Source: Branchipolynoe longqiensis (lineage: Eukaryota; Annelida; Polychaeta; Phyllodocida; Polynoidae). Taken from it: a DNA stretch of 64,000 nt. Where the stretch lies: positions 26,268,271-26,332,270 of the forward strand of contig CM059186.1 of assembly GCA_030323885.1 (NCBI GenBank), in the 5' to 3' direction. The position numbers and the translations under genes were made by a program. Numbering within the stretch: the first letter of the stretch is position 1; every line of letters begins with the position of its first letter. Under the pieces are notes generated by a model that saw only the letters and a program-made list of their open reading frames with translations, had not been told where the DNA came from and did not search any database. Of this stretch, positions 1,055 to 55,284 are shown piece by piece.

Positions 1055-1636
1055 TGCTGTCACACTACGACGCTTCTCTGCAACGCGCGTCGACATGTGT
1101 CCGTTTTTGGCAAAACGTCGGGAGACGTCGGGAAGCGTTACACGCACGTTAGGCGCGCGTCGGTACAATCGGTACACCTTGATGGACGTTGACAGTCGCT
1201 GAGGATTGTCGGCACGCGTCGGCGCGCGTTTAAAGTTTTGTGCTTGCACAAAACTTTTCGACGTTTGCTCATGTGTGGGTCGAACGTTACGGGGACGTTA
1301 GGCGCGCATCGAAATACGTTAAACGCGCTGGAATAACGTTATGCGAACGCTAGGCAGATGCCGCACGCGTGGGAGGGTCATTCGCACACGTTGCGCCAAA
1401 CTGGGGCATTGTTGCTTTATGCCCTAGCAACATCTAGGGTCATATGAAGATGTCGTGCCAAACTTTTGTTTTTGCCCCACGCGTCGACACATGTTGGCCG
1501 CATGCTACTAACACGCTGAGCTGATGCCAAACTTTTTCCCAACACCGCCGAAAAGTTGGACGTGTCTCGACGTGTACAACTAATTTTGCGTGTTGGCGGC
1601 GTGCCGGTGAGAAGCGTTGTAGTGTGACTGCAGCAT
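1055..1636 (+). mobile_element. PIF/Harbinger-like MITE, family H1, CG-rich interior
   Basis: Inverted ends TCACACTACGACGCTTCTC (1060) and its near complement ending at about 1627, with weaker outer matches to 1055 and 1636. Flanked by TAG at 1052-1054 and 1637-1639, one base off the TWA expected. The interior is dominated by ACGCGCGTCG and ACGTTAGGCGCGC words, in both orientations. A short SINE-A 3' core (about 1425-1465, reverse) is embedded. Confidence 0.65.
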
Positions 1637-1798
1637 TAGTGTGGTGCTTACAGGAATGTAACAGTTACATCCATCACACTCATAGTCATACACGAGGGGA
1701 CGAAAAAGCACGTGCACACACCCACTTAATGGTACCACTGGATGGAGCGCAGATGTCCCAGCAATCTTCTTACAAACATCTCATTGCCAACAACTGGG

Positions 1799-2116
1799 GC
1801 GAGGTGGCCGAATTCGTAGAGCGCAAGGCTCGGGATTTCGATTCCCGGTCGAGTCATACCAATGAGTTATGCAATTTTTACCTGTCGCTTCCTAGCTTGG
1901 CGCTCAGTGTTAATAGGATAGGGCAAGGACTGGTTGGCTCAGTGTCAGGATAATGTGACCGAGTGGGGATATCGGGTCATGATGATGGTGGCGTGGTTTC
2001 CCAGTGGGGCAGTCCTATAAAGTAGCCATGAGTGCACACTGTTTCAATTCGGTACCCGTCCTGATATGACCTTATATGTTGCCAGGATGTAAAACTCCAA
2101 AAACCAACAACCAACC
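1799..2116 (+). mobile_element. SINE-A, full-length copy with shortened tRNA head
   Basis: Head GAGGTGGCCGAATTCGTAGA, B-box-like TTTCGATTCCC, shared body (GGGCAAGGACTGGTTGGCTC) and 3' core ending ACTCCAAAAACCAACAACC. About 10 bp of the anticodon-arm region is missing compared with the copy at 33938. Followed by (TA)n. Confidence 0.85.
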
Positions 2117-2220
2117 TAATATATATGTATATGTATATATATATATGTATATGTATATATATATATGTATATGAATATGTATATATATACATATACATAT
2201 ATATATATTTATTTATATGC

Positions 2221-2840
2221 ATAAACAATGTGACAGACCCCAAATCACAAGCCTATGAAATTAAGTCCAATCATTGCTGAATCTAGCGCTGACAAAAGGC
2301 ATTATTCACTGAATACAATACATTTTAGTAAAAGAAAAAAAATGTCCACGTTTGTCCCGCTCACACCGAGCCCCCTTCCGCCCGACACTAACCTTTCACC
2401 TCGCCAAGGTAACCCCCTCCCCCCCGCCCCCCACTCCCGCTGCCCCCACCTTCAATGCCCCCCTCCCCCCACACACACAACACACACTAAAAAAATACCC
2501 AAGCCTGACTTCCACCTTTACCCGTAAATCATGCTAATGACTTTCCGGTCCCAACAAACTCATTAAATGCATCTTATCTAATTCTCTCCGCACCATTACC
2601 TGTTTATGCAAATTGTGTTAGATTGCAACTTAGACTGGCGATGGTAGCCAGTATGGTATATATACCACTGCAATTCCATAATGTATGGTGCAATGAACCT
2701 TACACTTACAGCAAAGGTTTGGTCATCGAATGCAAAATGTAGGGAGAATTTCTTCAATGCGACAGTCAAATAGTCAGCTATTTACATTACAGGAAAGTAG
2801 CTTAGAGTTTAAACGGTTAAATCATAGGTTGCGTGTGTGT
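2221..2840. other. Unrecognised sequence with a C-rich tract
   Basis: C-rich at 2370-2480 (CCCCCTCCCCCC), otherwise unique-looking. No gene signal. Confidence 0.5.
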
Positions 2841-3155
2841 TGTTTTACGTCCTAGCAACATCTAAGGTCATATCAGGATAGGTACCGACTTGTGCCAGTG
2901 CACACTCATGGTGACTTTATAGTGCTGCCCCACTGGGAAATCAAGTTGTCGGCACCCTGACCCGATATCCCACTCAGTCACATTATCCTGACACTTCGCT
3001 AGCCAGTCCTTGCCCTATTCTATTAATGCCGAGCGCCAGGCTAGGAAGCGACAAGTATCAAAATTTGTCATTTGTTTGACTCGAGAGGGACCTGAACTCC
3101 CGATCTCCCGCACACGAGGCCCGCGCTCTATTGATTCAGCCACCACGCCCGGTCC
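2841..3155 (-). mobile_element. SINE-A, full-length copy, reverse
   Basis: Starts with the 3' core TTTTACGTCCTAGCAACATC, runs through the body to the inverted head ending GATTCAGCCACCACGCCCGG. Diverged by point changes only. Confidence 0.85.
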
Positions 3156-3159
3156 ATTT

Positions 3160-3480
3160 TCTTGAAGATTTATACTGCCTATCAAGGATAAGCCTGAATA
3201 GACTTGTTTTCACCATTAGACAGTTTGTCAATAGAGAGCCCGAGCCTACACTTTTACTGACCCAAGGGATTTTTAACCTCCCACACCACATAGACATGGT
3301 ATGAGAGAAACTGGCCTTTGATGTCGCTGTAAGTTATACACAGTGGTACCATAGGTTACGATTGACCGCAGATGACAAACTAGAGGCTGTGGGGTTGACG
3401 TAGCAGTTTTGTTACAAATCCAGGGTGAGCGACATGAACCGAACGAGCACGCGCTTCCCACCCGGGGCATCATGGTATCA
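3160..3480 (+). repeat. Dispersed repeat R1, longest copy
   Basis: TTGAAGATTTATACTGCCTA to GTAAGTTATACACAG (3160-3346) matches 50992-51180 closely, and its first half matches 54907-55030. The remaining sequence to 3480 has no second copy here. No terminal structure or protein motif; nature unknown. Confidence 0.7.
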
Positions 3481-3600
3481 ATCTATCGCTAATGTCAAAC
3501 CTGGCTTACACGAGTTATACTCGTCACTCGATTGTCATGTGATTGACATTATTGATGCTCGGTAAAGCTATTTTAAATATTTACCCAAGCCTCTATGATC

Positions 3601-4949: not shown

Positions 4950-5644
4950 AGCCCCATTCACACATAGCTGGACGAGCCCCCGATTTTGAGGCGGACCACC
5001 CACGGACCAACGGCCTGGACTGTCCCAGACCAGCACGGATAAAATCACTGTTTTCGTCGATTTTTGCCTCGCAGTCACACTTTCCCAGACGAGCCCCGGA
5101 TGAGCCCCAGACCACCCCGTACCACCCCCGGACTGCCCCCAGACTGGGTTGGACCGGCCCCGTATGAGGCCGGACCACCCCTGGACTGCCCTGGCCCACC
5201 CCTGGACTATACCAGATCACCCCCGGACTATCCCGGATCACCCCCGGTCTTACGGGGGCAGTCCGGGAGTGGTCCGTGTCTAGGCCGGGGGTAGTCCTGG
5301 ATAGTCCGGGGATGGTCTGGGTCAAACCATGGTTCAAAATTACCCTGGACAGGCCCGGTCCACCCCGGACCACCCCTGAAATACCCGGTCCACCCCCAGA
5401 CCACCCCCGGATCAGGCCGGATTGAGGCCAGATCGCAAAATCCCCCGGACCGCCCTGGATGTCTTAAACATTTTAAAACATCCGAGGGTGAGCCCGGACA
5501 GCGCAGAATGAGCCACGGATCAGGCCGGATCAGGGGGTGTCGGCACGGATGAGCCACGGACAAGCCACGGATCGCCCCGGACCACCCCGGATGGAGGTCC
5601 AGGGCTCGTCCGGCCCCTGATCTGGGTATGTGTGACTGGCGCTT
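4950..5644 (+). mobile_element. PIF/Harbinger-like MITE, family H3, CCGGACCACC interior
   Basis: Inverted ends AGCCCCATTCACACATA and, at right, the complement of AGCGCCAGTCACACATA. Flanked by TAA at 4947-4949 and, after one extra T, at 5645-5647. The interior of ~600 bp is an irregular array of CCGGACCACCCC-type words in both orientations, with strong self-complementarity. It gives open frames on both strands that are only shadows of the repeat. Confidence 0.65.
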
Positions 5645-7294: not shown

Positions 7295-7690
7295 AGCTAA
7301 GATTCCAAATATGCGGTATGCGAATGTTGTTGTTTGTTGTTTGTTTGTTGTTGTTTTACGTCCTAGCAACATCTAAGGTCATATCAGGCGAATGTGAATG
7401 CGGCAAAAAATGGAAAAGCATGTAAAGACACAGTAGTGCTTCCATATGTTCGAATGTGAATGCAAATGCAAATGCAAATGCAAATGCGGCAAGTGTATTT
7501 CTATGAGGACCGATTGGTGCGAATGGGAATGCGAATATGAATGCAGCCTCTTTTGCCATCTAGAAAACAACAGTAACTTTGACGTTCCTTCACAAATTTG
7601 TAGAAAGAAACACCGAACATTGCATCGATATCTATACCGCATGCACATTCGTATTTGCATGCCGCATGCCGCGTATATGGAATCTTAGCT
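7295..7690 (+). mobile_element. PIF/Harbinger-like MITE, family H4, copy a
   Basis: Ends AGCTAAGATTCCAAATATGC and the complementary right end, with TAA on both sides (7292-7294, 7691-7693). The interior iterates GAATGCAAATGC words. A SINE-A 3' core (7341-7388, reverse) is inserted near the left end. Confidence 0.8.
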
Positions 7691-8150
7691 TAAGCCTTGT
7701 CAATGCTGCTGTTGTCAGTGCTATCCTAGAGAGTATCTCAGGCTTGGAAGCCTCATCAGTTATATGTGAGTCCTTTCCTTCACAAATTTGTAAAAAGAAA
7801 CACCGAACATCGCATCGATATCTATACCGCATGCACATTTGTATTTGCATGCCGCATGCCACATGCTGCATATATGGAAACTTAGCTTAAGCCTTGTCAA
7901 TGCTGCTGTTGTCAGTGCTATCCTAGAGAGTATCTCAGACTTGGAAGCCTCATCAGTTATATGTGAGTCCTTTCCTTCACAAATTTGTAAAAAGAAACAC
8001 CGAACATCGCATCGATATCTATACCGCATGCACATTTGTATTTGCATGCCGCATGCCACATGCTGCATATATGGAAACTTAGCTTAAGCCTTGTCAATGC
8101 TGCTGTTGTCAGTGCTATCCTAGAGAGTATCTCATCCTAGAGAGTATCTC
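7691..8150 (+). repeat. 197-bp tandem duplication of the right half of MITE H4 plus flank
   Basis: Units 7691-7887 and 7888-8084 each begin TAAGCCTTGTCAATGCTGCT and end CTTAGCT, the MITE terminus. The last unit breaks off near 8145 with a short repeated word (ATCCTAGAGAGTATCTCA). So three copies of the H4 right terminus lie in a row. Confidence 0.85.
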
Positions 8151-8875: not shown

Positions 8876-9140
8876 GGTAGGTTGGTTGTTGGAGTTTTAA
8901 GTCCTGGCAACATCTAAGTTCATATCAAGACGGAGGTTGGTTGGTTGTTGGAGTTTTACGTCTTGGCAACATCTAAGTTCATATCAAGACGGAGGTTGGT
9001 TGGTTGTTGGAGTTTTACGTCCTGGCAACATCTAAGGTCATTTCAGGATGGGGACTTTATAGTGCTTCCCCACTAGTAAATCAGGCTGCTGTCACCATTA
9101 CCCAACATCCCACTCACTGACTCACTCACATTATCCTGAC
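8876..9140 (-). mobile_element. SINE-A 3' end, triplicated in tandem
   Basis: A ~63-bp segment starting GGTTGGTTGTTGGAGTTTTA occurs three times in a row (8878, 8938, 8999). The third copy continues into the body as far as CACATTATCCTGACTG. Typical of tail slippage or template switching during retroposition. Confidence 0.8.
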
Positions 9141-11913: not shown

Positions 11914-11935
11914 TAATATAACTTAAGGGCGCATT

Positions 11936-12526
11936 CCTTACACGCGTTATGCGGTACACGAATGCGAATGCGACAAAAAATCGAAATGCCTTGAAACCTA
12001 TGAGCTACATTCCTTACACGCGGTATGCGAATGCGAATGCGTTTTTCCGATCGGTCCATGTAGCGATCGATGTGGCATGCATGATGCGTCAAGCTGGGTG
12101 TGAATAGAAACCTGAGTCTGATGTGTCCATTAGTTTAACACCAGGAGAGGCGACTGAGCATTACGGAACAGTCTCATAGAGGGGTGCTAATTGGAAACAC
12201 ATGGTGAGCTGGGCACCCGGGAGACATACGGTTAGGGGAAAGCTAAAAATGCCACCATATGCACAGAAATATGAATACTTATCTATAATTTGGTTATAAT
12301 AAAGGTAGGAACCCCCATGTGACGTACACAAAGTTACATAGATATAAATACAATATTTGGTCATATACAGAGCAGTATGGAGAATAATTGTTTATTTTTA
12401 TTTTTTAAATATAGCCAGTCGTGTGCCGCATACCGCATACCGCATAATGCGTGTAAGGAATGATGGCATTCGCATACCGCATACCGCATGCCGTATTACG
12501 CTTAACGCGTGTAAGGAATGCCCGCT
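11936..12526 (+). mobile_element. PIF/Harbinger-like MITE, family H4, copy b
   Basis: Ends AGGGCGCATTCCTTACACGC and, at right, the complement of AGCGGGCATTCCTTACACGC. TTA at 11933-11935 and 12527-12529 is a clear target duplication. GAATGC/GCATACCGC words are concentrated at both ends. The central ~300 bp is AT-rich with no recognised content. Confidence 0.85.
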
Positions 12527-14099: not shown

Positions 14100-15722
14100 T
14101 ATCACATGCCCCTTTGCAGTGAAGCTTAGTGGGGGTTTCCTAGCCTTATTTTGCACAGATATTTTTTGTATGTTTTTAGGTCAGGAATTTGTCATTCCTT
14201 TACTGTTTGGGCATTCCACACATTGGCAGCCATTTCCAGCGTGCTTCTCTCGTGAGCTTTTATTTGGCTTCTGGTCTGCTTTAGTAGTGGCGCATTATTT
14301 GCTCTAGTAGCCCTTTGTGGTTTTGTTAGTAGTTTATTGTCTTGATTATAGCTGCATGCTAATGTTTTCAGATGAATTATTCTCCTATTTTCTAGCAGTT
14401 TTACTTTGGTTCTTTTGTGTATGTCATAGGTGGGGTGCAGCTTGTCTACTCTGAGGCAGATTTTCAGGGCTCTGTTCTGAAGTGTTTGCAGTTTTTTTAG
14501 AAGTTCTTTTTTCGCACCCATGTAGTTTACATCTCCATAGTCAAAATAGGGGAGCACCATGCCCTTGAAGATTTTTATTGACATTTCTTGTGTCATGTAG
14601 TCTCTTAGCTTTGCAAATAGCCACAGTTTGTGGTTTACCTTTTGGACAATTTTGTTTATACATAGGTTGTAGTTTAGTTGGCTGTCCAACTCAAGGCCTA
14701 GGTATTTGTAATGGTCTACATTTTCTAGTGTTTGGTTTCCTAGCTTACAGTGTAGTTTTCTTTCTGGCATTTGTTTATGTGAGAAGAGAACTGTTTTTGA
14801 CTTGCTTGTGTTGATGGTTATTTTGTTGGACTCACACCACTCATCCAGTTTTAGTAGGAGCTTGTTTAGTTTAGTTATTACCTCCTCTTCTGTGGTGCCA
14901 TTTGCATATATGACTGTCTCATCTGCATATAGTTGGAGGCATTCAGTTTTCAACCATTTATCAAGATCGTTTATGTAGATTATAAAGAGCAGTGGCCCTA
15001 ACACTGACTCTTGGGGTACACCACATGTGACAGGTTGGTTGTCTGATAGTGTATTGTTTATTTTTGTTTTCTGTTGCCTGTTGTTCAGGTAGCATTTTAT
15101 GCAGTCCATAGTGTTGGATTTTATGCCCATGGATTTGAGTTTTTCCAGTAGTATGTTATGGTCTACTGTATCGAATGCTTTGCTGAAGTCAATGAAGGCT
15201 GCTCCAACTAATTGTTTTTGGTTCATTGATGCCAGTATGTCATTTGTTAGGTTAGCTATTGTTTTTGATGTGGAGTGCAGTTTCCTGAAGCCCCCTTGTC
15301 TCTCATTTAGTATATCGTTTTTTTCCAGGTGTTTATTTATGTGTCTATGTAACACTTTTTCAATGAGCTTGCTTGGGGTTTGAAGAATTGATATTGGCCT
15401 GTAGTTTCCCATGTTTTGTTTGTCTCCAATTATGTGAATGGGGGTGATGGTTGCCATTTTCCAGGCTGAGATAAAAATGCCCCTGTTCAAAGGAGATGGT
15501 GAATAGGTCTACTATAGTGGCTGGGATGGCTTGGAGTGCCTCTTTCAGTATTTTGGTTGGGATTTCATCTATTCCACTTGGTTTATTTGTGTCTATGTCA
15601 TTTATTAATCTTTTTACTTCTGTTATATCTGTTTTGCAGGTGGGGATTTCATTCTGCACAGTTCCTGATCTATTTTTCCACCTTTTTTGAATTTTTATGA
15701 CAGCTTTTGTCCTATTGTGCAA
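14100..15722 (-). pseudogene. Non-LTR retrotransposon reverse transcriptase, CR1/L2/Jockey-like, inactivated
   Basis: The minus-strand frame 15490-14192 (432 codons) carries an RVT_1 domain: NYRPIS early, palm motif A in FIDFSKAFDTVDH, the CGVPQxSVLGPLLF block, and catalytic box C reading YADE at about 14920. It ends at TGA 14194-14192; the same frame continues about 24 codons further in a way typical of the C-terminus of such proteins. The N-terminal part lies in another frame (15722-15360), so there is a frameshift near 15480. No endonuclease domain is visible, so the copy is 5'-truncated or its 5' end has decayed. The second catalytic Asp is replaced by Glu, a further sign of inactivity. 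Exact clade uncertain. Confidence 0.85.
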
Positions 15723-19375: not shown

Positions 19376-19432
19376 CCTGATATGACCTTAGATGTTGCTA
19401 GGACGTAAAACAACAATAAACAAACAAAACAA
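19372..19432 (+). mobile_element. SINE-A 3' core fragment
   Basis: CCGTCCTGATATGACCTTAG, ATGTTGCTAGGACGTAAAAC, then an A-rich end. Abuts the CTCCCT block. Confidence 0.75.
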
Positions 19433-19744
19433 GCATCCACTCCATCCAATGTCACAGCGGCCCCAGGCATGGCACACTGAGCATGGGGGGGCTCCCACGT
19501 ACATCTGACGGAGTTAGTGGGCATTTTTGTATGTCTGTGGGTTAAGGTTTTTTTTTTTTAGGGGAGTGGATGATTCGTTGACAAGTTTATCGCGCATTGG
19601 ATGCAGACGCATGCGCAATGGTTTGAATTGGAGAGAAACCATCAGGTGTATGTAGGATGTAGGCTTCAAAGTCAACGTGGAAAGCAGGGCGGGATTTGTA
19701 TCTGGTCGCCATTAATTAAGAGGTGCAGCTTTTAATGCCTGGTC

Positions 19745-19838
19745 TTAAAGCTGCATAGTCTGATGAAAGCTTCAACTTTCAAAACCAAAACACTCAGCTA
19801 GATTTGATCCTACATATCCAAATTAGATTCTACTGCAC
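19745..19838 (+). mobile_element. TTAA-flanked MITE, left fragment before the nest
   Basis: TTAA then AGCTGCATAGTCTGATGAAA and family sequence as far as TGCACTTATT, where the next copy begins. Confidence 0.75.
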
Positions 19839-19864
19839 TTATTGAAGCTGTATAGTCAAGTTAA

Positions 19865-20211
19865 AGTTGCATAGTCCGATGGTTTTGAGTTTCTGTAATT
19901 TTTCTGAGGTTAAGATACTAAATTGATTGTCATAATCTACCTTTCTTTAATTTGAAGTGACTTTTATTTTGAATGGCTAGTTTTTGAGATATTTGAAGTC
20001 CAAACATGTCAAATTAATTTTGGCAAGCACGCCAAAACTCTGATGAAATAGGCTTCAGTAGTAACCGGTCTGATTAAATTGACTCAGTATCACCTTGTAT
20101 GTGGCACCAAATACTTAATAAGTGCACCAGTATCTAAGTTAGATATGTAGAATCAGGTCTAGATAATTGGTTTGGGTTTGAAAATCTGATGATTCATCGG
20201 ACTATGCAACT
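19865..20211 (-). mobile_element. TTAA-flanked MITE, complete copy nested in another
   Basis: 347 bp with terminal inverted repeats AGTTGCATAGTCCGATG (left) and its near complement (right). TTAA is present at 19861-19864 and 20212-20215, and the host copy has a single TTAA at that point, so this is a readable 4-bp duplication. Reverse orientation relative to most copies in the window. Confidence 0.85.
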
Positions 20212-20273
20212 TTAAGCATCACGTTTTCAAAACCAAAACAATTATTTAGATTTGAGTCTACATATATCACTTA

Positions 20274-20536
20274 TGGCCGGTGCACACCTACCGTTTTTCC
20301 GCGCACACCTACCGTATACGATCTAAAACTGCCCAAAAATCGCTAGGTGTGCGCCCCCGCGCACACCTACCGATTGCGATTCGCGCATAAAACTCAGTTT
20401 TTAGTGCTAAAAGCGGCCGTTTACGATTGCGATTCGCGATTCGAAAAACGAATCGGCCCGTTTTCAGTTTTAAGCGGGTCGGGTCGAGTCGCGAGTTTTA
20501 GTGCGCGAATCGTAAACGGTAGGTGTGCACCGGCCA
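20274..20536 (+). mobile_element. PIF/Harbinger-like MITE, family H2
   Basis: 263 bp with near-perfect inverted ends starting TGGCCGGTGCACACCTACCG, flanked by TTA at 20271-20273 and 20537-20539. The interior repeats GCACACCTACCG and GCGATTCGCG words. A 3-bp TWA target and GG-starting TIR fit the PIF/Harbinger superfamily. It has no ORF of its own. Confidence 0.8.
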
Positions 20537-20596
20537 TTAGATAGTGTACTTGTTAATCGTGTGTTGCCACATAGAAGGGAATACTGAATCAATTTC

Positions 20597-20743
20597 TATT
20601 AACTTGACTCGGTATTCCCTTCTATGTGGTGACAAATGTTTGCTAAGTGCATCAGTATTTAAGTTAGATATGTAGAATCAAATTTAAATAATTGCTTTGG
20701 TTTTGAAAATCTGATGGTTTCATCGGACTATGCAACTTTAATA
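20597..20743 (-). mobile_element. TTAA-flanked MITE, partial reverse copy
   Basis: Reverse half-copy ending CATCGGACTATGCAACTTTAA at 20743. It lies directly after a forward copy of the same segment (20540-20596), so the two form an inverted repeat around position 20598. Confidence 0.7.
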
Positions 20744-21890: not shown

Positions 21891-21966
21891 TTATGACAGT
21901 CAATTCAATATATTTATCTCAGAAACACGACAGAAAGTCAAAACCATCGGATTATGCAACTTTAGC

Positions 21967-23628
21967 CTGCTGAATGCATCACAAGTAATATCTCTAGAAG
22001 TATGAATATAGAAAGAAATGAATATAAAAATTTTGTCAATCGCCATCCAGAAAAGCTTTCGGAGATAACCCATGATCTCCCGTGAACGGGAGCGGCCCGT
22101 GTTCAGCGCAGCCTGGACCACAGCACTGTCAGTCATGAACACTATCGAGGCCCCCCCCCAACCATGCGCCCAGCGTGTGGCTGCCTCAAATGCGGCCGCC
22201 ATTTCTTTGACATTAATATGAGCAGAGTCCAACCCCTCCTCGGGTGAGACGTGATGGTGCCCCACATAGTCACAAAGCGCTATATCATCATCTCCCTTAT
22301 AACACCCGACTAACCAATGCCCCCCATGGGTGGCGCCCATACCCCAGCCTGAGGCATCGCTATAGACTGAGCAGACCCGCGTAAATTTTCCTAGCATGGC
22401 AGCCTTCCCGTTAAAACGTGTGGCAAAGCGTTCCCACCATTCAATGTCCTAGCAGAAGCCCACACCCAACCTGGTGTAGTGATAAGGCTCCCTGATGGAA
22501 GCAATGAGATCATAGATCCCACGGCAGAAGGTACGGACTCCACGGATCACCTTGGCACAATGTGCAAGTAACCCCCCCAGTCTCTCAAGATCCTTCCATT
22601 TTGCTCTCCTCCGACCCCGGAATTGAGCCAAAACTCGGTATAATTTAATGAGCTTATCAGCGGGGAGAGTTAAATCTAATTTTATAGTATCAATGTCGAT
22701 CCCAAGAAGACGCATTTTCTGAGTAGGGGAGAGCAACTTCCGAAAGCTTAGTGAGAAACCCAACCTACGTATTATTGCAATTAGTTTTGATTGGTCAATA
22801 GCATTGTGATCCCATGAATCGCCGATAATACAAAAGTCATCGAGGTATTTAAGACCCGTTTTATGCCTTCCTTCTTTGCACATCTTACAATAAAATTAGA
22901 TATTTTTGTAAATATAAAGGGGCTTGAGGCAAGGCCCATTGATAGGCGATTGTCGACCATATATCTAACACTGTCATCATCCCTAAATTTCCACTTCAGA
23001 CCCTGCCTTATGCCGTCCTTAGGGTTTATCTGGATGGCCCTGTAAGCATCCTTTATGTCAATAGAAGATAGGTGGTCACCCTGCTCAAGATTGTCGATTA
23101 CATTATCGACACTTAGGTATTTAAAAGTATGGGTGACCTCACTAGTGGCCGAGTTGACCGACCTATCACGGGGCTTACTACTGTCGATAACCAGCCGACC
23201 CCCCCCCCCCCACTCTCTTTTGGGACGACAAACATGGAGTGGACACATTGTGGTTTGTAGTCAACACAAGAAATGACACCCTGGTCTAAATCAACAGCCA
23301 ATTTCGCTTCGATAAGGGGTCGCTCCCATGCCAACAAGCGTTTACTATTGTTGTTTTCATAGCTGTTGTCAAATTCAGTATTTATCACCTGAAAACCGAA
23401 GACTATGCCTCGTAATATATAATAGGCTTCGGGATCAATGCCGCCCCTGAAAAACAGTTCAGCGAAAAACCGACAAGGCTTCAATTGACAAACAACACCC
23501 TCAAGGCGGTATACACAAGAACAAACACCCCTATCACAGTCATTTGTTACATAGAACATGACGGGCGAGGAGCCCTCGAATTCACTGATAGTCACTTCTA
23601 GACAACCCTCACAGTCTCTCACTTGCAT
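21967..23628 (-). pseudogene. DIRS-group (PAT/Ngaro-like) reverse transcriptase and RNase H, broken
   Basis: Read right to left: the RT N-terminal region with KPQCVHSMFVV (frame 23628-23113); a frameshift at a C-homopolymer near 23205; then LVIDSSKPRDRSVN, SIDIKDAYRAIQINP (palm motif A) and MGLASSPFIFTKI (frame 23248-22781); a second frameshift near 22870; then YLDDFCIIG (catalytic box C) and the thumb (22883-22449); an in-frame TAG at about 22450; and an RNase H domain starting YSDASGWGMGA, with INVKEMAAA and FMTDSAVVQAAL, ending in CDAFSR at 21970. It stops where the MITE at 19839-21966 begins. Two frameshifts and one stop make it non-functional. No recombinase follows on this strand. Confidence 0.85.
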
Positions 23629-24078
23629 TCAGTCCTGTATGCATTCAGGTACTTGTAATCCTTGACTGTCATATAATTGGTTGGAATCTATCACAGGCTC
23701 GGGGCTTAGTGGTCCGACACCCGAACTGTTCAGCTGGTGTTCACCTCGCGGTGGGGCCTCCTCCATATCAGCCCCCCTCTTGTGTGCAACGTAGTCACCT
23801 GCAAAGACCCCCTCGTCGACATGATAAAGTTGTTCCTCTGTAGGAGTCCTATTCTCCACACAGTACATGCAGTCACCTACAAAGACCCCTGTATCAGCAC
23901 AGTCCTCACGGTCATCTACAAAGACCTTATTATCCCTATTGTCGAGCCAGTCACCTCCAAAGACCCCTCTCTCAATATCGTCATCACAGGTGCGGTTTAA
24001 TCCCATCACACCGTAACCCCGGTCACCTGCAAAGACCTCTACCACCCGGCTGGGCTCCTGAGAGTGCGCCCGCCGTCA
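23629..24078 (-). pseudogene. Spacer reading frame with a 13-residue repeat, between gag and RT
   Basis: This frame is the same as that of the zinc knuckle upstream and of the RT start downstream, and is separated from each by a single TGA. It contains five diverged copies of a block with core VFAGD (VFGGD, VFVDD, VFVGD). On the plus strand the repeat word GTCACCTGCAAAGACC recurs at about 23798, 23872, 23911, 23950 and 24031, so the unit is about 39 bp and stays in frame. No known domain. It may be a linker of a Gag-Pol polyprotein, or a separate small ORF. Confidence 0.5.
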
Positions 24079-24080
24079 CT

Positions 24081-25080: not shown

Positions 25081-25449
25081 ATAAAATACTTGTGTAAGTT
25101 ATGTAGTGAAGCAGTACCGGTGTTTGAAGTAGATCGACTGTTAAAGGCAGTTCAATTGTATATGAGAACCATAGCAAAATCATTCGATGGAGTGATGTTC
25201 TATGCTGCTGCCTATATGTTCAATTCTTATGATAATGAGGATGCAGTGTAAAGGTGTATAAAATATAATTGGTAGGTATATGAATAAGAACTATGTATAA
25301 AATATTAGAAGAGTATAAGTGTAATGCCAGCATTCACTTCAGTTAGTTCATTTGTCATAGAGGCAATGTATATCAATGAAAATGTTTGACTAGCCTAAGT
25401 ACTATGTCTTTTATATTTCTAAGTACATGCTAAAATATAGCACCAGCAT

Positions 25450-32340: not shown

Positions 32341-33127
32341 TTGTTGTTTTATAACCTAGCAACATACAATGTCATACAGTACAACCCCATTACACCAAGC
32401 TTTGTTAAACCAAACGATTGGTTAATCCAAAAAATTTTCGGCGGCCTGGCAAAAAACTACCCCTTCTCATATAAAAAAGTTGATTAAACCAAAGTCGGTT
32501 AATCCAAATTATCGGTTAATCTAAGCAAAATTGTCGGGCCCCAGGCCACTTCCGGTATGGTTAAACCAAACTTTCAAGTGGTTAAAAGGTCATCTGAGAC
32601 TTTTTTATATGATAAATGGTAGTATTTTGCCGGGCCGCCGAAAAAAGTTAGGATTAACCAATCGTTTGATTTAACCAAGCTTGGTTTAATGGGGTTATAC
32701 TGTACATTCATAAAAAAAAACAATAATCAAAGTGTCCACAATCACTGTATATTACATTCATAATGCACCCACTTTTTTGTTAAATCCAAGTCAAAGTCGA
32801 AGCCAAAGCTTGGTTAAACCAATGATCGGTTAATCCAAACAAATGTCTAGGGTCCCTTCAGGTTTGCTTTAACGGAGTTATACTGTATCAGGATGGGCAT
32901 TGACCTCTGACAATTCGCACTCATGGCACCTTTAAAGTGCTGCTCCACTGGGAGACCAGGCCGCCCACACAATGACATAATACCCCACTCAGTCACATTA
33001 TCCTGATACAGTGCTAACCAGTCCTTGCCCTATCCTATTAATGTCGAGTGCCAGATTAGGTAATGACAAGTATCCGTCCTGATATGAACTTCGATGTTTG
33101 CCAGGACTTAAAACTCAAACAACCAAC
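32341..33127 (-). mobile_element. SINE-A interrupted by pogo-like MITEs, with an opposed 3' core
   Basis: 3' core at 32344-32376, MITE insert 32377-32885, then the SINE continues 32888-33072 (TCAGGATGGGCATTGACC onward). At 33073-33127 a forward 3' core (CCGTCCTGATATGAAC) follows, so the two SINE ends face each other. Confidence 0.8.
32377..32885 (+). mobile_element. Tc1/mariner-type (pogo-like) MITE pair inserted in a SINE
   Basis: The first unit, 32377-32702, has ~55-bp inverted ends starting CAGTACAACCCCATTA and closing with GGGGTTATACTG. A second partial unit runs to TATACTG at 32885. The outer ends are flanked by TA (32375-32376 and 32886-32887), and the interrupted SINE has a single TA there. 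CAGT-starting TIRs with TA duplication suggest pogo/Tigger-like elements. Interior words such as GGTTAATCCAAA repeat several times. Confidence 0.75.
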
Positions 33128-33239: not shown

Positions 33240-33575
33240 TGTCGCAGTTTAAAAGGGTACCCGGTTTAAAACAGGGCTTTTCAAATGCGCATGCACATGC
33301 ATTTCTGCCTGATTGAGATTGTACCCATGTTTAATAACTTGTTTAATAACTTGTTAGTGCAGAGGATGATATATACTATCAAGCATAAAATAGTCACTAC
33401 AATGATTCCTGAACGAATCTTTGGTTATCTCACCATACATTTCCAGAGAACTCCTCCATAGACAGAAGCAAGCCAAAAATTCAGAGAAGATTTCAGGCTT
33501 GGCATTCGACTTTGATGCATGCACATTGTGAAAAGCCCTGTTTTAAACCGGGTACCTTTTAAAACTGCGACACTG
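33240..33575. mobile_element. Fold-back element with ~60-bp inverted arms
   Basis: GTCGCAGTTTAAAAGGGTAC, CCGGTTTAAAACAGGGCTTT and GCATGCACATGCAT (33239-33301) recur inverted at 33513-33575. The ~210-bp loop has no ORF. Unclear whether it is a MITE or a local inversion duplication. Confidence 0.7.
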
Positions 33576-34730: not shown

Positions 34731-34835
34731 TCCACTTGAACGCGGAGTCTCAAACATTCAAAATAATTTTTCCCGGGAAGGGGATTATTGTTCTTTTGCC
34801 TGTGTATTTGGTGGCGGTGGTTTGTTTGCTTGTGT

Positions 34836-35180
34836 GTTGTTTTACGTCCTAGCAGCATCTAAGGTCATATCAGTACGTGTACTGACTTGTGATAGTGTGC
34901 ACTCATAGTGACTTCATAGTGCTGCCCCACTGGGAGACCAGGCCACCAGCACCATGACCTTATATCCCACTCAGTCACATTATCCTGACACTGAGCCAAC
35001 CAGTCCTTGCCCTATCCTAATAATCCCGAGCACCTGGCTAGGAGGCAACAAGTATACATTTTTAAGTCATTGGTTTGACTCGACCAGGGTTCAAACCCAC
35101 AAACTCATGGGTTCGGATCACCCGATCTCTCAAAACAGGAGACGGACGCTCAACTCGTTCGGCCATCCTGTCCGGTGGTG
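34836..35180 (-). mobile_element. SINE-A, full-length copy, reverse, head variant
   Basis: 3' core GTTTTACGTCCTAGCAGCAT through body. The head has a longer insert (AACTCATGGGTTCGGATCAC) as in 565-918 and 38783-39060, so this head variant recurs. Ends TCGGCCATCCTGTCCGG. Confidence 0.85.
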
Positions 35181-48699: not shown

Positions 48700-49495
48700 G
48701 TATAATGCTCATAATATATATGTAATATACTTTATATAAGGTATACAATATATAGTACGTAATATATATATTATATATAATCTATTATATACATATAAAC
48801 GCTCGGAGAATTATTTATTATTTATTAGTTTCGATTCTACTCGACTTAATATTGTCCAATCGCCGCCGTCCGCTGGCCCTGCTGCGGTCCTGGCGGTTTC
48901 GACGCTGCTCGAGTTGGTTTGAATCGTCACTTGCCTCCAGTTTTTTGCTTTTGTATTAGGTAGAGCATTTATCGCTCAGCCCGGAGTCGAATAAACGAAC
49001 CAACCCAATCTGCTGTCTCTTGTCAATTCGTAGGGGAGGCTTATATATATAATATGATGTAATATACACAATAGACACAATATGCACAATATGCACAATG
49101 TACAAAATATGCACAATGTTCACAATATTTATAATGTACAGTATATACAGTATATACAGTATATACTGTATATACAATATATACAGTATATACAGTATAT
49201 ACAGAATATAAGTATATACAGTATACAGTATATACAATATAAACAATATATAAAGTATATACAATATATACAGTATATATAATATTAATAATATATACAG
49301 TGTATACAATATATCCAATATATACAGTATATATAATATTAATAATATATACAGTGTATACAATATATTCAATATATTGTATATATAATATATATATATA
49401 CTATATATATATTATACATAGTATATATAATTTATATATATAATGAATAACATATATAGGATATGATATATATGATATTATATATATATAAATAA
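48700..49495 (+). repeat. TA-rich tracts before the P450
   Basis: 48700-48800 and 49040-49495 are TATACAGTATATACA-type repeats. The unique stretch 48800-49040 holds no candidate exon that I can defend. Confidence 0.8.
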
Positions 49496-49571
49496 TGTTT
49501 GAATGTACATACACCTTGCTGCCCACCCTTCAGGTCTATAACCTGCTCTTTCACCCTTGTGTCATTAACAG

Positions 49572-51961
49572 GAGAGCGGGAGAACCACCCATTGTCAAGG
49601 GTAACTTCATCATGGGTAGCTCGGTGGAGTTCAACACGCATGCTGTCAACTTCCTGCACAATGCGCGCAAGGAGTATGGTGATGTTTTCACCATCCGCCT
49701 CATCAACCAGCACCTCACCATCGTCATGGACCCTCACTCATTTGAGGCCCTGAACCGTGAGAAGAATTTCGACTTCGAGGCCATCCAGCGCCAGGTGAAC
49801 ATGAACGTGTTCAACTTCACTCTAACAGAACCGCGGAAGATGATCAAGGAGACAGGCAAGACCGTCAAGGGCGCTTCGCTGATCCGGGAGATCGGCAACT
49901 ATACTGAACTCCTCACTCAGTCCTTCGAGCAGCTAACCGAAGACAAGGACGGCAAACCTTGGGTGCCCGGTCTTCGCTCCTTCTGCGCCACAACCCTCTT
50001 CAACCCCATCTTCACCTCCATTTTCGGTCACGAAAAGAAGAAGAACCTGTTCAACTGGAGGGATGTGTGCAATAACTTCGAGATCTTCCATCAGTATTTC
50101 AACTTCATGTGGCTTGGCTTCCCCAAGGCCCTCTTCCCAGCTGTCGGCAAGTCGCTTGTTGCCCTCATGGACCAGCCGTCATCCGAAGAGCTGCTGAACC
50201 GTGATGACTGCTCTGAGTACATCAAGACGGCCACAAGGAACATGCTCGACCAAGGCCAGTCGGAGGGCGCAATCAAGGGCCATAACCTTGTCTACCTGCA
50301 CGTCAACTACAACACCTTTCGCCTTGCCTTCTGGGTGCTCAACAACATAATTGAGGACCCCAAGGCCTACGCAGCCCTCACTGCTGAGATCGAAGAGATT
50401 ATCAGTGCCAAGCTGGACAAACAAACCAACACCGCCCACCTCACCATTGCTGATGTTGAGGGACTGCAAGTCCTCGGTGAGTAGCGTGAAAAGTAGTTGG
50501 ATGAGGTGGATGACATGCATTCATGAATTGTGATTAAGACGCGGTTCATTTAGCTAGCATGAATTGGGGGTTTAGGTGACAGCAATTAATATGTATATTA
50601 ATATATACCATATGCATTATATACTGCAATATTCAGTGTATACAATACAATATATAATATATGTGATATATATAATATATATATATAATATATTATATGT
50701 ATTATATATTATATCTATACAATATATACAAAATATGCAAGGAATACAATATATACAATATATGCAATATTTATAATATATATAATATATAATATATATA
50801 TAATATATATAAGATGTATAATATATATAATATATATAAGATGTATACTAATATAATATATTAATATATATTTATTATATTATATATCAAATATATTATG
50901 TATTATATGTAATATATACTCATTCTTATAATATATAATATGTCATTTTTATTTTTAATATATAGTATATTTAATATACAATATATTATAGTTGTTGTTG
51001 AAGATTTATACTGCCTATCATGGATAAGCCTGAATAGGCTTGTTTTCACCATTAGACAGTTTGTCGATAGAAAGCCTGAGCCTATACTTTTACCGACCCA
51101 AGGGATTTTTAACCTCCCACACCACATAGACATGGTATGAGAGCAACTGGCCTTTGATGACGCTGTAAGTTATACACAGCGATGGAAATCCAAATTGGCA
51201 GAGGTGGGGGAACATGGAATATTTAAATATATCAGATGTATAATATTATATATAATAAACATTATATATAACAATATACAGAACATAGAAATATATATAA
51301 TATATTTACCGACCATTGAAGAATAATGGTTTAACTTCATTTACATTGAAATGCTCTAAATTGTAAACAACATACAATTTCCCCAGTGAACACACTCCTC
51401 ATGAAAATGGCGCTCTTTCTGTTTTTCAGACTCCATCATGAACGAGTCCCAGCGTATCGCCAGTGGCGTCTTCATGGTCCGCTACGTCACCGAGGACACG
51501 TGGTTCAAGACGACCGGGGACAAGAAGGAGCACCTGATTCGTGCTGGGGACCGCATTGCCATCTACCCGCCAGCCATCCATAAGGATCCCGAGATCTTTG
51601 AGGATCCACTGGTGAGTACTTGCTACCAGCTGATATTAGTTAGTGATAATGCTATCAATAATGAACCATGTATTAGATGTTATATTATTTAATTTTACTA
51701 TGTATGATGTTAGATCGTATATAATAATGAGCCTGTCTCTTTTTTTTGTCCATTGTAACAATTGATGCAAAACAGCATAGAAACGGTTACAGTGAAAACA
51801 CAAGGACATTTGCTTCAAATCAAGATGTATTCTATTGGGATTATGAAATACCATGTAAAAAACAAATCAGTTTATCCTGAGCAAATGCATAAGCAGATAG
51901 TATGTTGAGCGTTACAATGGACACAGTTTTGTCCCATATTGCTTAGCACCTTTTGAGACAG

Positions 51962-52005
<44 letters not shown>

Positions 52006-52627
52006 ACATATATTAGTATTTGTATTAATATTATTACTGTATATTGGTGTGTATTTGGATCTATTAGTGTATACTATATATATCATTATTAGTGTATATA
52101 TTATATTATGTATTATATTATATATTAGTATATACTATATACAATGTGCTATATTAGTTTTTATCATATTATAATATATTACATCTCATATCATAGACTG
52201 CTGTTGCTCACAACAACCAGGTATAAATTATAATTACACTCACCACCATTACACGTCTATACTCACTAACCAACTCACTAACTCACCACCTAACTAAGTC
52301 CTGCTCCACCTCTCTCCCCACCCGCAGACCTTCAAGTACGACCGTTTCGTTGGCGCCACCTTCTACAAGAACGGACAGCGCGTCAAACACCCCGTCATGA
52401 CGTTCGGCGCTCTGTGTCCCGGCAAGCGTTACGCCCTGGCGCAGCTTCGCTGGTACATCGTATCCGTGTTCTCCCGCTACCACCTGAGCTTCCCGGAGGA
52501 CCACACACCCGCCCAGTACGACTACCAGTACCACGGCCACGAGATCCTACCGCCCATCACTGACGTCAACTGCACCGTCACGCCGCGCGCCAACCCACCA
52601 CGTCTCGTCTTCGACAGGATGTTATGA
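49572..52627 (+). CDS. Cytochrome P450, CYP7/CYP8-like (clan 7), 5'-partial, three exons
   Basis: Haem-thiolate monooxygenase related to the CYP7/CYP8 group (sterol hydroxylases, prostacyclin synthase); expected at the ER membrane. Exons are 49572-50476, 51430-51611 and 52328-52627 (stop TGA 52625-52627), giving about 461 residues. Both donors are GTGAGT and all acceptors are pyrimidine-rich ending CAG. Intron phases are 2 (incoming), 1 and 0. Landmarks in order: a proline-rich hinge RRAGEPP at the start; an I-helix at 50289-50333 with Asn-Thr where most P450s have an acid-alcohol pair, as is usual in CYP7/8; the K-helix ExxR as ESQR (Glu 51444, Arg 51453); FKYDRF in the PERF region; and the haem Cys at 52415-52417. 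The membrane anchor (roughly 30-40 residues) must lie in an upstream exon that I could not find. The frame runs back to 49495, but the sequence before 49572 is a good splice acceptor. Oddity: the haem loop reads FGALCPG, three residues shorter than FxxGxRxCxG. The substrate cannot be read from sequence. Confidence 0.9.
50477..51429 (+). other. P450 intron (phase 1) filled with TA repeats and a dispersed repeat
   Basis: GT-AG intron of 953 bp between the first two visible P450 exons. About 50580-50990 is TA-rich imperfect dinucleotide sequence. A copy of dispersed repeat R1 lies at 50992-51180. Exon DNA is GC-rich and the intron strongly AT-rich, so the boundaries are sharp. Confidence 0.85.
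50992..51180 (+). repeat. Dispersed repeat R1, copy in P450 intron
   Basis: Same sequence as 3160-3346 with few changes; shares GGGATTTTTAACCTCCCACA and CATAGACATGGTATGAGAG. Confidence 0.8.
51612..52327 (+). other. P450 intron (phase 0) carrying a TA-flanked MITE
   Basis: GT-AG intron of 716 bp. It holds a MITE at 51728-51966 followed by a TA microsatellite (51967-52003) and AT-rich sequence. The acceptor is in a C-rich tract ending CCGCAG just before the Thr-Phe-Lys-Tyr codons. Confidence 0.85.
51728..51966 (-). mobile_element. MITE, GAGACTG-TIR family, copy in P450 intron
   Basis: Ends are inverted repeats that read TGAGACTGTCTCAAAAGGTG inward from the right side, with a diverged counterpart at the left. 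It aligns in reverse orientation with 29888-30163 along nearly its whole length. Both copies sit inside TA-rich flanks, so a TA target duplication (Tc1/mariner style) is plausible but cannot be proved. There is no coding capacity. Confidence 0.75.
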
Positions 52628-52682
52628 GCGTGAAAAAGTGCACGCTCTGCCCTCACGCCGCGCTAACACTGTCTGCCACGTG

Positions 52683-52945
52683 TGGCATGTTATGCGTGTG
52701 CGTCATGCATGTGTGTGTGTTGTGCGTATGCATCATGCATGCGTGCGTTTATGCGCATGCGATATGCATATGTGATATATGCCATGCATCATGCGCCATG
52801 CGTATGTGTCATGCATATGCGATATGCATACATGCGCCATGCATCATTCATCATGCGTTATGTGTATGCGCTATGCGTGCATGCTATGCGTGTGCGCTAT
52901 GCATGTGCGTTATGCGTGTTCGCGTGTGTGCGTGTGCGATGCTTG
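52683..52945 (+). repeat. ATGCGT/ATGCAT alternating tract after the P450 stop
   Basis: Irregular TGCGTATGCATCATGCATG sequence of alternating purines and pyrimidines, starting 56 bp after the stop codon and thus probably in the 3' UTR. I saw no AATAAA close by. Confidence 0.85.
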
Positions 52946-53166
52946 AGCAACCTTACTGCCAGGTGCTTGACTTACAGGCAACCCCCCCCCCCCCTCTCCC
53001 ACTCACCTCACCCTGCCTCGCCCCTACCTACGCCCCACCCACTCACCACATAACCTTTACCGCCCAGACTCTGATATATACCTCAACGCCGCGCCACGCC
53101 CCACAGCACGGCCTGCCGCTGGCGGCAGGAGTCGTGCGCTGCGGACCACGTGACTCTAGACTCTCT

Positions 53167-53649
53167 TCTTCTTCTTCTTCTTTTCGTTCGCCTTCAATTA
53201 CACTTGGAGCCCAGTTCCGTTGAATTTGTCTCCAAGTGTCATATGGCTGTGTATGCGGGGTACCATGGTTTGTTAGGGTGCGCCTTGCGGCCTGCTACCT
53301 CCGACTTCAGCACCCAAGGTTTTCTGTTAGGGTTACCTCACCCTTAGCTCCTGATCAAAGGACCTACCTTGGGAGCACAAGGGGATTGAACTTATAACGC
53401 AGCTCTTGCTCGCATGATGTACCTGTCATGGGACACATGAGGTATTTCAATGAGGACACCAGTGCCAACCAGTTGCCCACTCCTCGTCCTTTTAGGATCA
53501 TCACCAGTTGGTCCGGGGCTGTTTATTCGACTGGGTAAGCCCACCTTATTTCACAGCTAACCATATTTAAAGGCCATGTCGCTATCCACCACCTACGACC
53601 CACTGGGTTGGGGATGGTCACCCCGGGGATGATCACCCCGTAGCCCAGA
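53167..53649 (-). mobile_element. Non-LTR retroposon insert with GAA tail and 12-bp duplication
   Basis: Flanked by a perfect direct repeat TCTAGACTCTCT (53155-53166 and 53650-53661). The plus-strand left end is (TTC)n, so on the minus strand the element ends in (GAA)n. It shares the TTTTCTGTTAGGGTT segment with the insert at 11207-11630. It lies 540 bp after the P450 stop. Confidence 0.75.
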
Positions 53650-53799
53650 TCTAGACTCTCTGACACCACCCATTATCGCTGGTGCCGATATCCCTTCTTT
53701 TTTTGTGACGTCATGACGGCAGCGTCTAGCAGCATATTAAGTACGTCACTGAACCGCGGAGGGCTGTGAACTCTCAGCAAGTCGGGCGGAGACCACTCG

Positions 53800-53875
53800 A
53801 ACACTGAGGGGATGAGGATGAAGAGGAGGAGGAGAAGGAGGAAGAGGAGGAGGAGGAGGAGGAAAAGAAAAAAGG
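53800..53875 (+). repeat. (GAGGA)n purine tract
   Basis: GAGGAGGAGAAGGAGGAAG-type sequence. 53662-53800 before and 53880-54620 after it hold a TA/CA tract at 54000-54065 and otherwise nothing recognised. Confidence 0.85.
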
Positions 53876-54644
53876 CACTGTCTCAACCAGGTGTCGCGTG
53901 TACACATCACCTGTTGAAGAACTCAACTTAATGTATAGAAACAAAAATACAAAGAAAAACGCTGCCAAAGTGTTAGACTTGTTGAAAAAGGCTACGATAT
54001 ATTATATATATACACACACATATTTATATATATATATTGACACACACACATACATATACATATCTATATTTTTTCTGACAAAAACCTCCTAAATCTGGTG
54101 ACTTCGGCATAATCCTGGTTCATACTTTTGCCATCGCAGAACGATTGTTATTGTAATGATAATTATCATCACGATGTTCATCAATGGAGATTTGTGTATG
54201 TGTTTTCTTATATGTCCCAACAGTTTCTAAGTAAAAAACCCCAAAAGGGGTGGGGGTGAATTACATTCCAAAAGCATTGCGTTTGCGGACTGACATTGTA
54301 AATAGCATTGCACGCATCACAGTACAGTATTTCACTGTCTTATTATCATCATTATTAATATTATTATTTTATGTGTCCATTTTAGCTCCCTCCTGAATGT
54401 AGGCTATGGATGTCTGTTTTCTAGAATTAGTTTTAGTTTGGTATCGGACGGTTTCTAAGCAACAACAACAATACCAACCAACCGGCAATAGAAGGTTAAC
54501 GATGCGCCGTTAGTAGTGGTAGTTGCTTTGTGTGTTTCAATTATAATTCATTATTACGCTTACCTATTCTTTGTAGTTTTTCGTCGGTGTTACAGCAGAC
54601 GTGGGAGGGAGGGAGGGAGGGAGGGAGGGCGGGTGTGAGTGTAA

Positions 54645-55284
54645 AGCTAAGATTCCTTACACGCGGTATGCGGCATGCGGCATGCGGTATGCGAACGGGA
54701 TGATTCCTTTCACGCGGCATGCGGCCGTCCATCTCACATGGGAGTTCCTACCTTTATAATTGCCAAAGAATAGATAACTATTCCTATTTCTGTGGATCTG
54801 GTAGCATTTTTACATATCCCATAACCGTCCGTCCCCCGGTGTCGATATATATATATATATATATATATATAAATCTTTTATTTTAATTCAATTTTTTTGG
54901 TTTTGTTGTTGAAGATTTATACTGTCTATCATGGATAACAGCACTATAAAGTTACTAAGTGCCCGCGGTCAAAATTCAGTACTGAATAGGCAGTTTGTCG
55001 ATAGAAAGCCCGAGCCTACACTTTTACCAACACAGTTCCGTAATGATCAGTCACCTCCCCTCGTCTAAAACAAATGGACACATGCGACTGATGGTTTCTA
55101 TTCGCATACCGCATGCCGCACCAATGGCTACAGGGACCGATCGAGTTGCCGCATTTGCATTTGCATTCGCATTCGCATTCGCATACCACGTGTAAGGAAT
55201 GCAGCCCATTGACTTCAAGGTGTTTTGATGTTTTGCCGCATTCGCATACCACATGCCGCATGCCGCGTGTAAGGAATCTTAGCT
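54645..55284 (+). mobile_element. PIF/Harbinger-like MITE, family H4, copy c, with nested insert
   Basis: Ends AGCTAAGATTCCTTACACGC and complement, flanked by TAA at 54642-54644 and 55285-55287. GCATGCCGCAT words fill both arms and CATTCGCATTCGCATT is iterated at about 55145-55190. A (TA)n tract and a copy of dispersed repeat R1 (about 54907-55030) lie in the middle. Confidence 0.85.

Follow-up and report, generated by a model that had tools for sequence, protein, structure and literature searches.

The 64,000-nucleotide window analyzed here (C1:26268271–26332270 of the 1.85-Gb genome of the annelid Branchipolynoe longqiensis) contains six short elements with inverted ends, designated E1–E6. 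A first-pass annotation had described them as Harbinger-like miniature inverted-repeat transposable elements (MITEs) with related outer terminal inverted repeats (TIRs) and interiors built from family-specific iterated words. Inverted ends were found for all six, at or within about 10 bases of the coordinates first assigned to them (Table 1). The elements range from 263 to 695 bp and have the properties of MITEs: they are short, non-coding (coding capacity being judged from the list of open reading frames (ORFs) alone), bounded by TIRs and a target-site duplication (TSD), and, for the E2, E5, and E6 types, present in many copies (79 to 1,675 exact ends per type). Judging from sequence comparison, they fall into four families, the first comprising E3, E4, and E6 and the others represented by E2, E5, and E1. 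We followed the E2, E5, and E6 families genome-wide in the same assembly.

We scanned the window blindly for 16-nt TIRs that have no more than two mismatches and the same 3-mer, whatever its sequence, on either side; there were 25 raw matches. Nine of these were not low-complexity: E3–E6 with a TWA triplet (W being A or T), E1 with a CTG triplet, and four unrelated matches. E2, whose ends are out of register by one base, was missed. The same scan of five block-shuffled windows gave 0, 1, 0, 0, and 1 matches. A candidate seventh element from the scan (E7, 33250–33562, TAA) was rejected, as its TIR runs to 45 nt past the TAA in question and its flanks fit no duplication. The 3-bp TAA or TTA flanks (once TAG) originally ascribed to the six elements are clean in E3–E6 but not in the E1 and E2 copies themselves: TAG/TAG around E1 (1052–1054 and 1637–1639) needs unequal ends, and TAA/TAA around E2 needs an extra T at the right end.

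E4 and E6 are homologous along the arms and part of the centre (74, 83, and 77.5% over 249, 106, and 80 columns), and they have long non-iterated centre stretches in common; E3 has the arms and the terminal AGCTAAGATTCC in common with both. The earlier description of each interior as made largely of one word was overstated, since the words cover 11, 36, 32, 21, 45, and 22% of E1 to E6, respectively (counted at ≤2 mismatches, or ≤3 for words of more than 10 letters). CpG observed/expected ratios are 1.04–2.14 in E1, E3, E4, E5, and E6 and 0.69 in E2, against a median of 0.645 in control tiles. A comparison of E4 with E6 for CpG decay shows 20 CpG sites kept as CpG and five that are TG/CA in each direction, numbers that decide nothing.

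Interiors repeat words of the outermost 40 nt more often than 300 shuffles do, at 0/300 each for E3, E4, E5, and E6 and 1/300 for E2, and in E4 and E6 the words of one arm mirror those of the other. The claim that the words continue the TIR and occur in both orientations was upheld for recurrence in E2–E6 and for the mirrored arms of E4 and E6, but E2 has its words in one orientation and E1 shows weak recurrence. Generic short-word pair counts were rejected as evidence because they are unspecific: 54/93 control tiles exceed their own shuffles threefold.

The length of the arrays varies in steps. For the E6 family, 32 sampled loci yielded 25 distinct elements (five lacked a right end within 800 bp and two were repeats), or 26 with E6 itself, and of their 52 arms, 26 belonged to type a and 21 to type b, with five of neither type. 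Measured from the end to a fixed GAATGGG, all 21 arm-b arrays parsed on a 7-bp grid, with lengths of 34, 41, 48, 55, and 62 nt in 1, 5, 5, 3, and 7 arms, respectively. Arm-a arrays followed a weaker grid: 25/26 measured 40, 46, 47, 52, 53, 59, or 60 nt, values reached from 40 by adding sixes and sevens, and the remaining one had a deletion within the TIR. Within the window, E4 differs from E6 and E3 by 18 nt (three hexamers), 7 nt, and 14 nt. Self-match was highest at lags of 7, 14, 6, and 12 in the E6 family and at lags of 10, 11, 21, 42, and 31 in the E2 family, a 10.5-bp spacing, with lag 1 also high. The arrays have gained or lost whole words. As separate observations, three E6-family elements (L068, L081, and L084) carry a third arm type in place of arm b, in which the array is followed by sequence resembling GGGTCCTTTCACCCACACCC, and two others (L066 and L093) have arms resembling those of E3.

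A second component of the arms is an inner copy of the TIR itself. When a 22-mer of the TIR was compared with 200 dinucleotide shuffles of each interior, inner copies scored 19–20/22 in both arms of E4, 18–20/22 in both arms of E6, 17–18/22 in E5, and 16–17/22 in one arm of E2, each at 0/200 shuffles. E3 gave no inner TIR recurrence in this shuffle test, and its alignment shows a degenerate copy. Tandem TIRs were present in both arms of E4, E6, the E6 family at large, and a transposase-bearing element on C8 described below, and in one arm of the E2 family; E1 lacked them. Most inner copies lack the outermost TIR bases and have no TWA duplication.

Inner copies occupy regular positions and carry arm-specific variants. 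Twelve of 15 E2-family elements, E2 included, hold the copy 108–123 nt from the end, always in the arm continuing GGACGAGCCCCGGATTTTGAG or a close variant (arm identity was assigned by eye), with an outer CATT in 8/12 and CAGT in 4/12. In the E6 family, the inner copy by its sequence clearly follows its own arm. Arm-b copies (n = 21) read CTTCTA in 19 cases, CTTCGA in one, and CTTTCA in one (that of E6), and none reads CTTACA; arm-a copies (n = 26) read CTTACA in 18 cases, CTTAAA in one, a second form, CCTTAC, in four, and something else in three, and none reads CTTCTA. The outer end of arm b is TTACAC in 10/21 and of the TTCTA type in 11/21, and these variant shares are biased because all fetched E6-family elements were located via one TTACAC end. 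In the E5 family, a second CACCTACCG copy lies 21 nt inside the end in five of seven distinct elements (10 loci) and is absent in two. As an observation in its own right, all 15 two-ended E2-family elements pair one CATT end with one CAG[TC] end, from a search pattern that itself demanded one CATT end, though either arm bears either variant; the pattern resembles an inversion of the interior between two ends obliged to be unlike.

Exact end patterns were searched genome-wide with the reversed pattern as control, the counts being of ends, both ends of one element included. The E2-type end AGCNCCATTCACACNTA gave 79 matches (control, 4), the E6-type end TWAAGCTAAGATTCCTTACACGCGG 1,675 (control, 0), and the E5-type end TWATGGCCGGTGCACACCTACCG 758 (control, 0). 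Viral contigs queried with two end patterns gave 0 matches. The TIRs had been grouped as related; in the window, ends of different families agree at the level of chance, with one of nine between-family comparisons marginal (E1–E2, 0.027, uncorrected), but genome-wide one outer end proved to be shared. We fetched and examined 28 of the 79 E2-type matches: 15 were E2-family elements with both ends (E2 included), two were E2-like without a right end, nine continued from AGCCCCATTCACACATA into GTTTAAC-type words, and two were unrelated. The same 17-nt outer end is thus found with CCGG words at 17 of the fetched loci and with GTTTAAC words at nine. E2 carries the identical 17-mer, and in some other CCGG members position 15 is C rather than A. 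The other end was visible at 4/9 GTTTAAC loci and reads AGCTGTGTTCACAC, so the sharing is one-sided; flanks at the nine loci were TTA/TTA in two, TAT/TAT in one, and unmatched or undelimited in six. The combination first described, a shared outer TIR with family-specific words, thus exists outside the window, for two word families and on one end only.

The excerpts of PMC4482050 describe the PIF/Harbinger group of PHIS as having a 3-bp TWA duplication and a TIR usually shorter than 60 bp whose first base is usually A or G, with autonomous members encoding a DDE transposase and a Myb/SANT protein. E2-family flanks were identical TWA triplets in 9/15 elements, TAA..TTA in three (E2 among them), and carried some other single change, or two, in three. 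In the E6 family (n = 26), 16 pairs were identical TWA, five TAA..TTA, two TTA..TAA, and three other. Among 33 readable pairs from 100 listed places for E5 (E5 included), located by a pattern that itself required TWA, 24 were identical, eight TAA..TTA, and one TTA..TAA. The dispersed repeat that hosts E5 occurs without it, with one TTA, at 10158, 13399, 31899, and 62287, and both flanks of E5 also hold uninserted host-repeat sequence, inverted, with one TTA. The single TTA in these uninserted paralogous sequences shows that E5 inserted with a 3-bp duplication. A relative of E1 (L061, 2595–3112) is flanked by TTA..TAA; its empty site, in L038, carries a single TAA. The first TIR base is A in E2, E3, E4, E6, and the E1 relative, and T in E1 and E5. 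Given the TWA flanks and empty sites, the PIF/Harbinger type is the best placement for all four families. The Harbinger-type identity originally suggested is thus supported by TWA in the E2, E5, and E6 families, by the empty sites, and by the abundance of DDE_Tnp_4 in the genome.

Flanks with a swapped centre base merit separate mention. They occur in 19/74 elements of the E2, E5, and E6 families (window copies included), with 16 TAA..TTA against three TTA..TAA (two-sided binomial, 0.004). Non-matching TAA/TTA-type pairs are exactly those used in mPing experiments, and no natural counts of such pairs were met in the excerpts of the mPing literature examined (PMC4561436).

We also asked whether similar arms occur on elements with coding capacity. 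In the window, no Harbinger transposase turned up, Pfam having been run on eight chosen ORFs rather than on all frames; these ORFs gave p450 and reverse transcriptase only. In the genome, PF13359 (DDE_Tnp_4) had 5,154 first-look candidates, and 150/150 of those scored were over the cut-off. By comparing two loci on C8 and C18 that agree to 99% over 5.17 kb, we could delimit one element, which is 5,514 bp long and lies within C8:76165500–76176400, flanked by TTA/TTA. One end reads TTA and then AGGTGCGGACAGACAGGACGCGTGCG; the other, AGCTGCGAACACACTGGACGCGT, also adjoins TTA. In the C18 copy, the left end adjoins TAA, and the stretch fetched shows no right end. The transposase of the C8 element (DDE_Tnp_4, 3.6e-38) spans two ORFs, presumed to be exons, with the domain in the second, and ORFs on the opposite strand carry MADF halves (1.5e-6 and 7.8e-7) and a BESS motif (1.6e-10). 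In the left arm, an inner TIR copy matches at 18/19 from nt 79, against no fewer than seven mismatches anywhere in the body. In the right arm, CCGAACACACTGGCGCGTGCG lies further in, followed by TCGCGCGTGCG repeats; a two-base gap excludes this copy from the ungapped test. The TIR of the C8 element differs from those of E1–E6. Because this transposase-bearing element has them, duplicated ends and words are not a MITE peculiarity, and the supposition that the architecture is specific to MITEs has to be abandoned.

An E1-like end near the transposase on C8 and C18 was considered as a sign of an autonomous partner and rejected, being a piece between transposase exons and not terminal. This 46-nt piece (L059 and L060) is 89% identical to the left end of E1, including the ACGCGCGTCG word, and lies in the presumed transposase intron. 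L059 further contains, in reverse complement at about 2294–2890, a MITE-like element with the TIR AGCCGTGTTCACACGGGCA, apparent ATA/ATA flanks, and GTTCACACGGGCA copies inside; this element repeats the core of its own TIR internally.

We consider it probable, though far from settled, that E1–E6 are non-autonomous Harbinger elements whose arms are duplicated ends and whose words, putative sites for a Myb/MADF partner protein, are iterated by slippage and end duplication. An arm, except in E1, comprises an outer TIR with the cleavage sequence, an array of 6- to 11-bp words, an inner TIR core, and more words. The inner copy, the core without its outermost bases, would be left by an occasional duplication of the end, and the arrays may expand and contract by replication slippage or gap repair within the arm. 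The outer TIR would be a putative code read by the conserved transposase, and the words putative multiple sites for a fast-evolving Myb/MADF partner. In excerpts of the literature, PIF/Harbinger elements are described as using a transposase and a Myb/SANT/MADF protein, both of which are required in the rice and zebrafish elements (PMC9710019); Harbinger3_DR has a Myb-like protein whose recognition site is a 9-bp subterminal motif (PMC9710019); and transposases are conserved while Myb-like proteins are divergent (PMC9179366). If the words are sites for the partner protein, this would explain why two families have the same outer end and different words. A two-part code, in which the transposase reads a shared outer TIR and a Myb/MADF partner putatively binds a family-specific word, is a possible extension that we put forward tentatively. 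Under such a code, families would arise by a word swap with the outer end kept, word number would tune affinity, and elements would grow by iterating their own binding site.

Several results weigh against this explanation. E1 showed no inner TIR copy in the shuffle test of its interior, and its end words recur weakly (7/300 shuffles); the words of E2 are not mirrored, 11/11 having the same orientation. Arm-a inner copies are as divergent as the adjacent spacer (0.122 vs 0.110, figures that cover arm a only and are both inflated by the mixing of two subfamilies), and selection on these copies, looked for by divergence against the spacer, was not found. Word positions in arm a diverge less, at 0.055–0.061, which does not count for selection because repeated words align favourably. 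Whole-word variation indicates neither gain nor loss as the direction, nor selection. Only one transposase-bearing element was delimited, and none with E1, E2, E5, or E6 ends was found in 30 loci, whose length of ~3.5 kb would not hold most whole elements. In addition, mPing and mPong have no specific promoting internal sequence in common, according to the excerpts of PMC9921582. The idea that MITEs grow by iterating their own subterminal motif accordingly survives in part: copies do differ by whole words, but the process is not MITE-specific and gain or loss is not polarised.

The words might instead be neutral by-products of slippage-prone arms, with the transposase reading the outer TIR alone. 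This account would fit the unremarkable divergence of arm-a inner copies, the freely varying unit number, and a background in which simple repeats fill the window (162 rows) and 54/93 control tiles are rich in repeated words. We nevertheless regard it as less likely, as each family has its own word, mirrored from arm to arm in E4 and E6 (not E2), the inner copy keeps to the same arm in the 12 of 15 E2-family elements that have it, and such arms are also found on a transposase-bearing element. The 10.5-bp spacing in E2, maintained over four turns, is one that a protein array would favour, although a 21-bp tandem unit would give it too. A nested insertion, or the fusion of neighbouring elements, in place of duplication within the arm is an improbable source of the inner TIR copies. 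Inverted and direct inner copies stand side by side in E5, and clustered MITE insertions are known in pineapple (excerpts of PMC8449440), but the usual absence of outermost bases and of a TWA duplication, the similar distances in the E2 family (108–123 nt), and the arm-specific variants argue for an origin within the arm. Very improbable indeed is the assignment of E1 to NuwaI and E2 to Spy, groups that, in the excerpts of PMC4482050, respectively have a CWG duplication with a TIR usually starting GGG, and an insertion site of AAA followed by TTT that is not duplicated. If the window copies are aligned with gap-free ends, CTG is compatible with E1, and either AAA/TTT or a 2-bp TA with E2, but the Spy reading fits E2 alone, its family having identical TWA in 9/15 and centre-swapped TWA in three, E2 among them, and the NuwaI reading conflicts with the TWA flanks and one-TAA empty site of the E1 relative and with the E1 TIR, which would start TCA.

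Returning to duplicated ends with iterated words, subterminal tandem repeats in PIF/Harbinger elements and tandem TIRs in Mutator-like elements (MULEs) are already known (PMC2213677, PMC3310237), and the comparisons that follow are with excerpts of the sources cited. MtPH-A6-4 of Medicago truncatula (2007) has subterminal tandem repeats, variable in number, that occupy one arm or both and at times nearly the whole element; they were explained by abortive gap repair (PMC2213677). These repeats are 60 bp long, contain a triplicated motif, and belong to one plant subfamily, whereas the elements here combine 6- to 11-bp words with inner TIR copies in several animal families, two of which share an outer end. 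Plant MULEs have an outer and an inner TIR in tandem, mostly at both ends, were amplified, and show no recognisable TSD around the inner TIR; they belong to another superfamily with long TIRs, and no short word arrays are described in the excerpts (PMC3310237). In the Foldback-like element Galileo, tandem repeats in long TIRs are further THAP-domain sites, as established by footprinting and gel shift; Galileo belongs to the P-element superfamily and has a TIR of ~1.2 kb (PMC3688188). Lastly, mPing/Ping/Pong (PMC9921582, PMC4561436) and Harbinger3_DR (PMC9710019) are PIF/Harbinger elements with TWA duplications that need two proteins, and the excerpts of these papers describe neither iterated words nor inner TIR copies. 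The combination of inner TIR copies, a unit grid of 6- to 11-bp words, and an outer end common to two word families was not met in the portions of open-licence PMC literature searched, and we make no claim that such arms are unreported elsewhere.

Table 1 Elements E1–E6 and their inner TIR copies in the window
Feature	Position	Strand	Remarks
E1, MITE with ACGCGCGTCG words	1055–1636		Flank triplets degenerate; located by end alignment and blind scan
E2, MITE with CCGGACCACC words at 10.5-bp spacing	4950–5644		Left flank TAA; right end with one extra T
E2 inner TIR copy	5072–5093	+	16/22 match to left end; 0/200 shuffles
E3, diverged member of GCATACCGC/GAATGC family	7295–7690		TSD TAA/TAA
Piece of dispersed repeat resembling a short interspersed nuclear element (SINE), inside E3	7327–7387		Flanked by GCGAATG duplication, 7320–7326 and 7388–7394
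E4, GCATACCGC/GAATGC family	11926–12526		TSD TTA/TTA
E4 left-arm inner TIR copy	12007–12028	+	20/22
E4 right-arm inner TIR copy	12442–12463	-	20/22
E5, MITE with GCGATTCGCG words and repeated GCGCACACCTACCG	20274–20536		TSD TTA/TTA
E5 inner TIR copy, direct	20301–20314	+	
E5 inner TIR copy, inverted	20341–20354	-	
E5 inner TIR copy, direct	20359–20372	+	
E6, GCATACCGC/GAATGC family	54645–55284		TSD TAA/TAA; orientation opposite to E4
E6 left-arm inner TIR copy	54701–54722	+	19/22
Foreign insert, centre of E6	54840–55031 (bounds approximate)		AT run and dispersed-repeat piece
E6 right-arm inner TIR copy	55181–55202	-	19/22 to left end

Other repeats surround, and in places involve, these elements. 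The right end of E3 with its flank is repeated nearly three times at 7585–8134; this 197-bp tandem array is a satellite seeded by a MITE end. E5 lies in a dispersed palindromic repeat (~19744–20741) with ends TTAAAGTTGCATAGTCCGATG and related stretches at 10132, 11123, 13377, 31866, and 62271; the inverted ends of this repeat would also fit an AAA/TTT site without duplication. The dispersed-repeat piece in the E6 insert has further copies at 3159–3257 and 50992–51100. A SINE-like tail, GTTTTACGTCCTGGCAACATCTAAGGTCATATCA, occurs at no fewer than 18 places (at least, for example, 7348–7384, 1409–1445, 19376–19432, and 34822–34873), including the inside of E1 and E3, and also as a 59-bp tandem array at 8876–9045. 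Two further inverted-repeat elements lie at 32375–32704, with a 54-nt TIR beginning CAGTACAACCCC after TA, and at 60205–60524, with a 90-nt TIR.

A CYP7A1-like P450 gene at 49492–52627 is split across several ORFs. Among the named matches listed, its best relatives come from nemerteans, annelids, a brachiopod, and molluscs and reach no more than 54% identity, which makes a spiralian host most likely. The nearest protein shares 92% identity with it across 88% of the query and comes from a 1,793-bp contig. A reverse transcriptase is encoded on the minus strand at 14192–15505 (RVT_1, 6e-38), and a second, weaker reverse transcriptase region lies at 21900–25148, also on the minus strand; we take these to be non-long-terminal-repeat and DIRS/Ngaro-like, respectively.

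For annotation, E1 and E2 are examples of how one copy can mislead on target duplication, and arms of this kind may pass for satellite or GC-rich low-complexity DNA. In the excerpts of the literature examined, the DNA site of the Myb-like protein has been shown for a single PIF/Harbinger element. In the B. longqiensis genome, word number is graded across hundreds of natural copies, ends are duplicated in an arm-specific way, and the same outer end is joined to different words in two families; with such material, the question of whether the words are the code of the second protein becomes testable.

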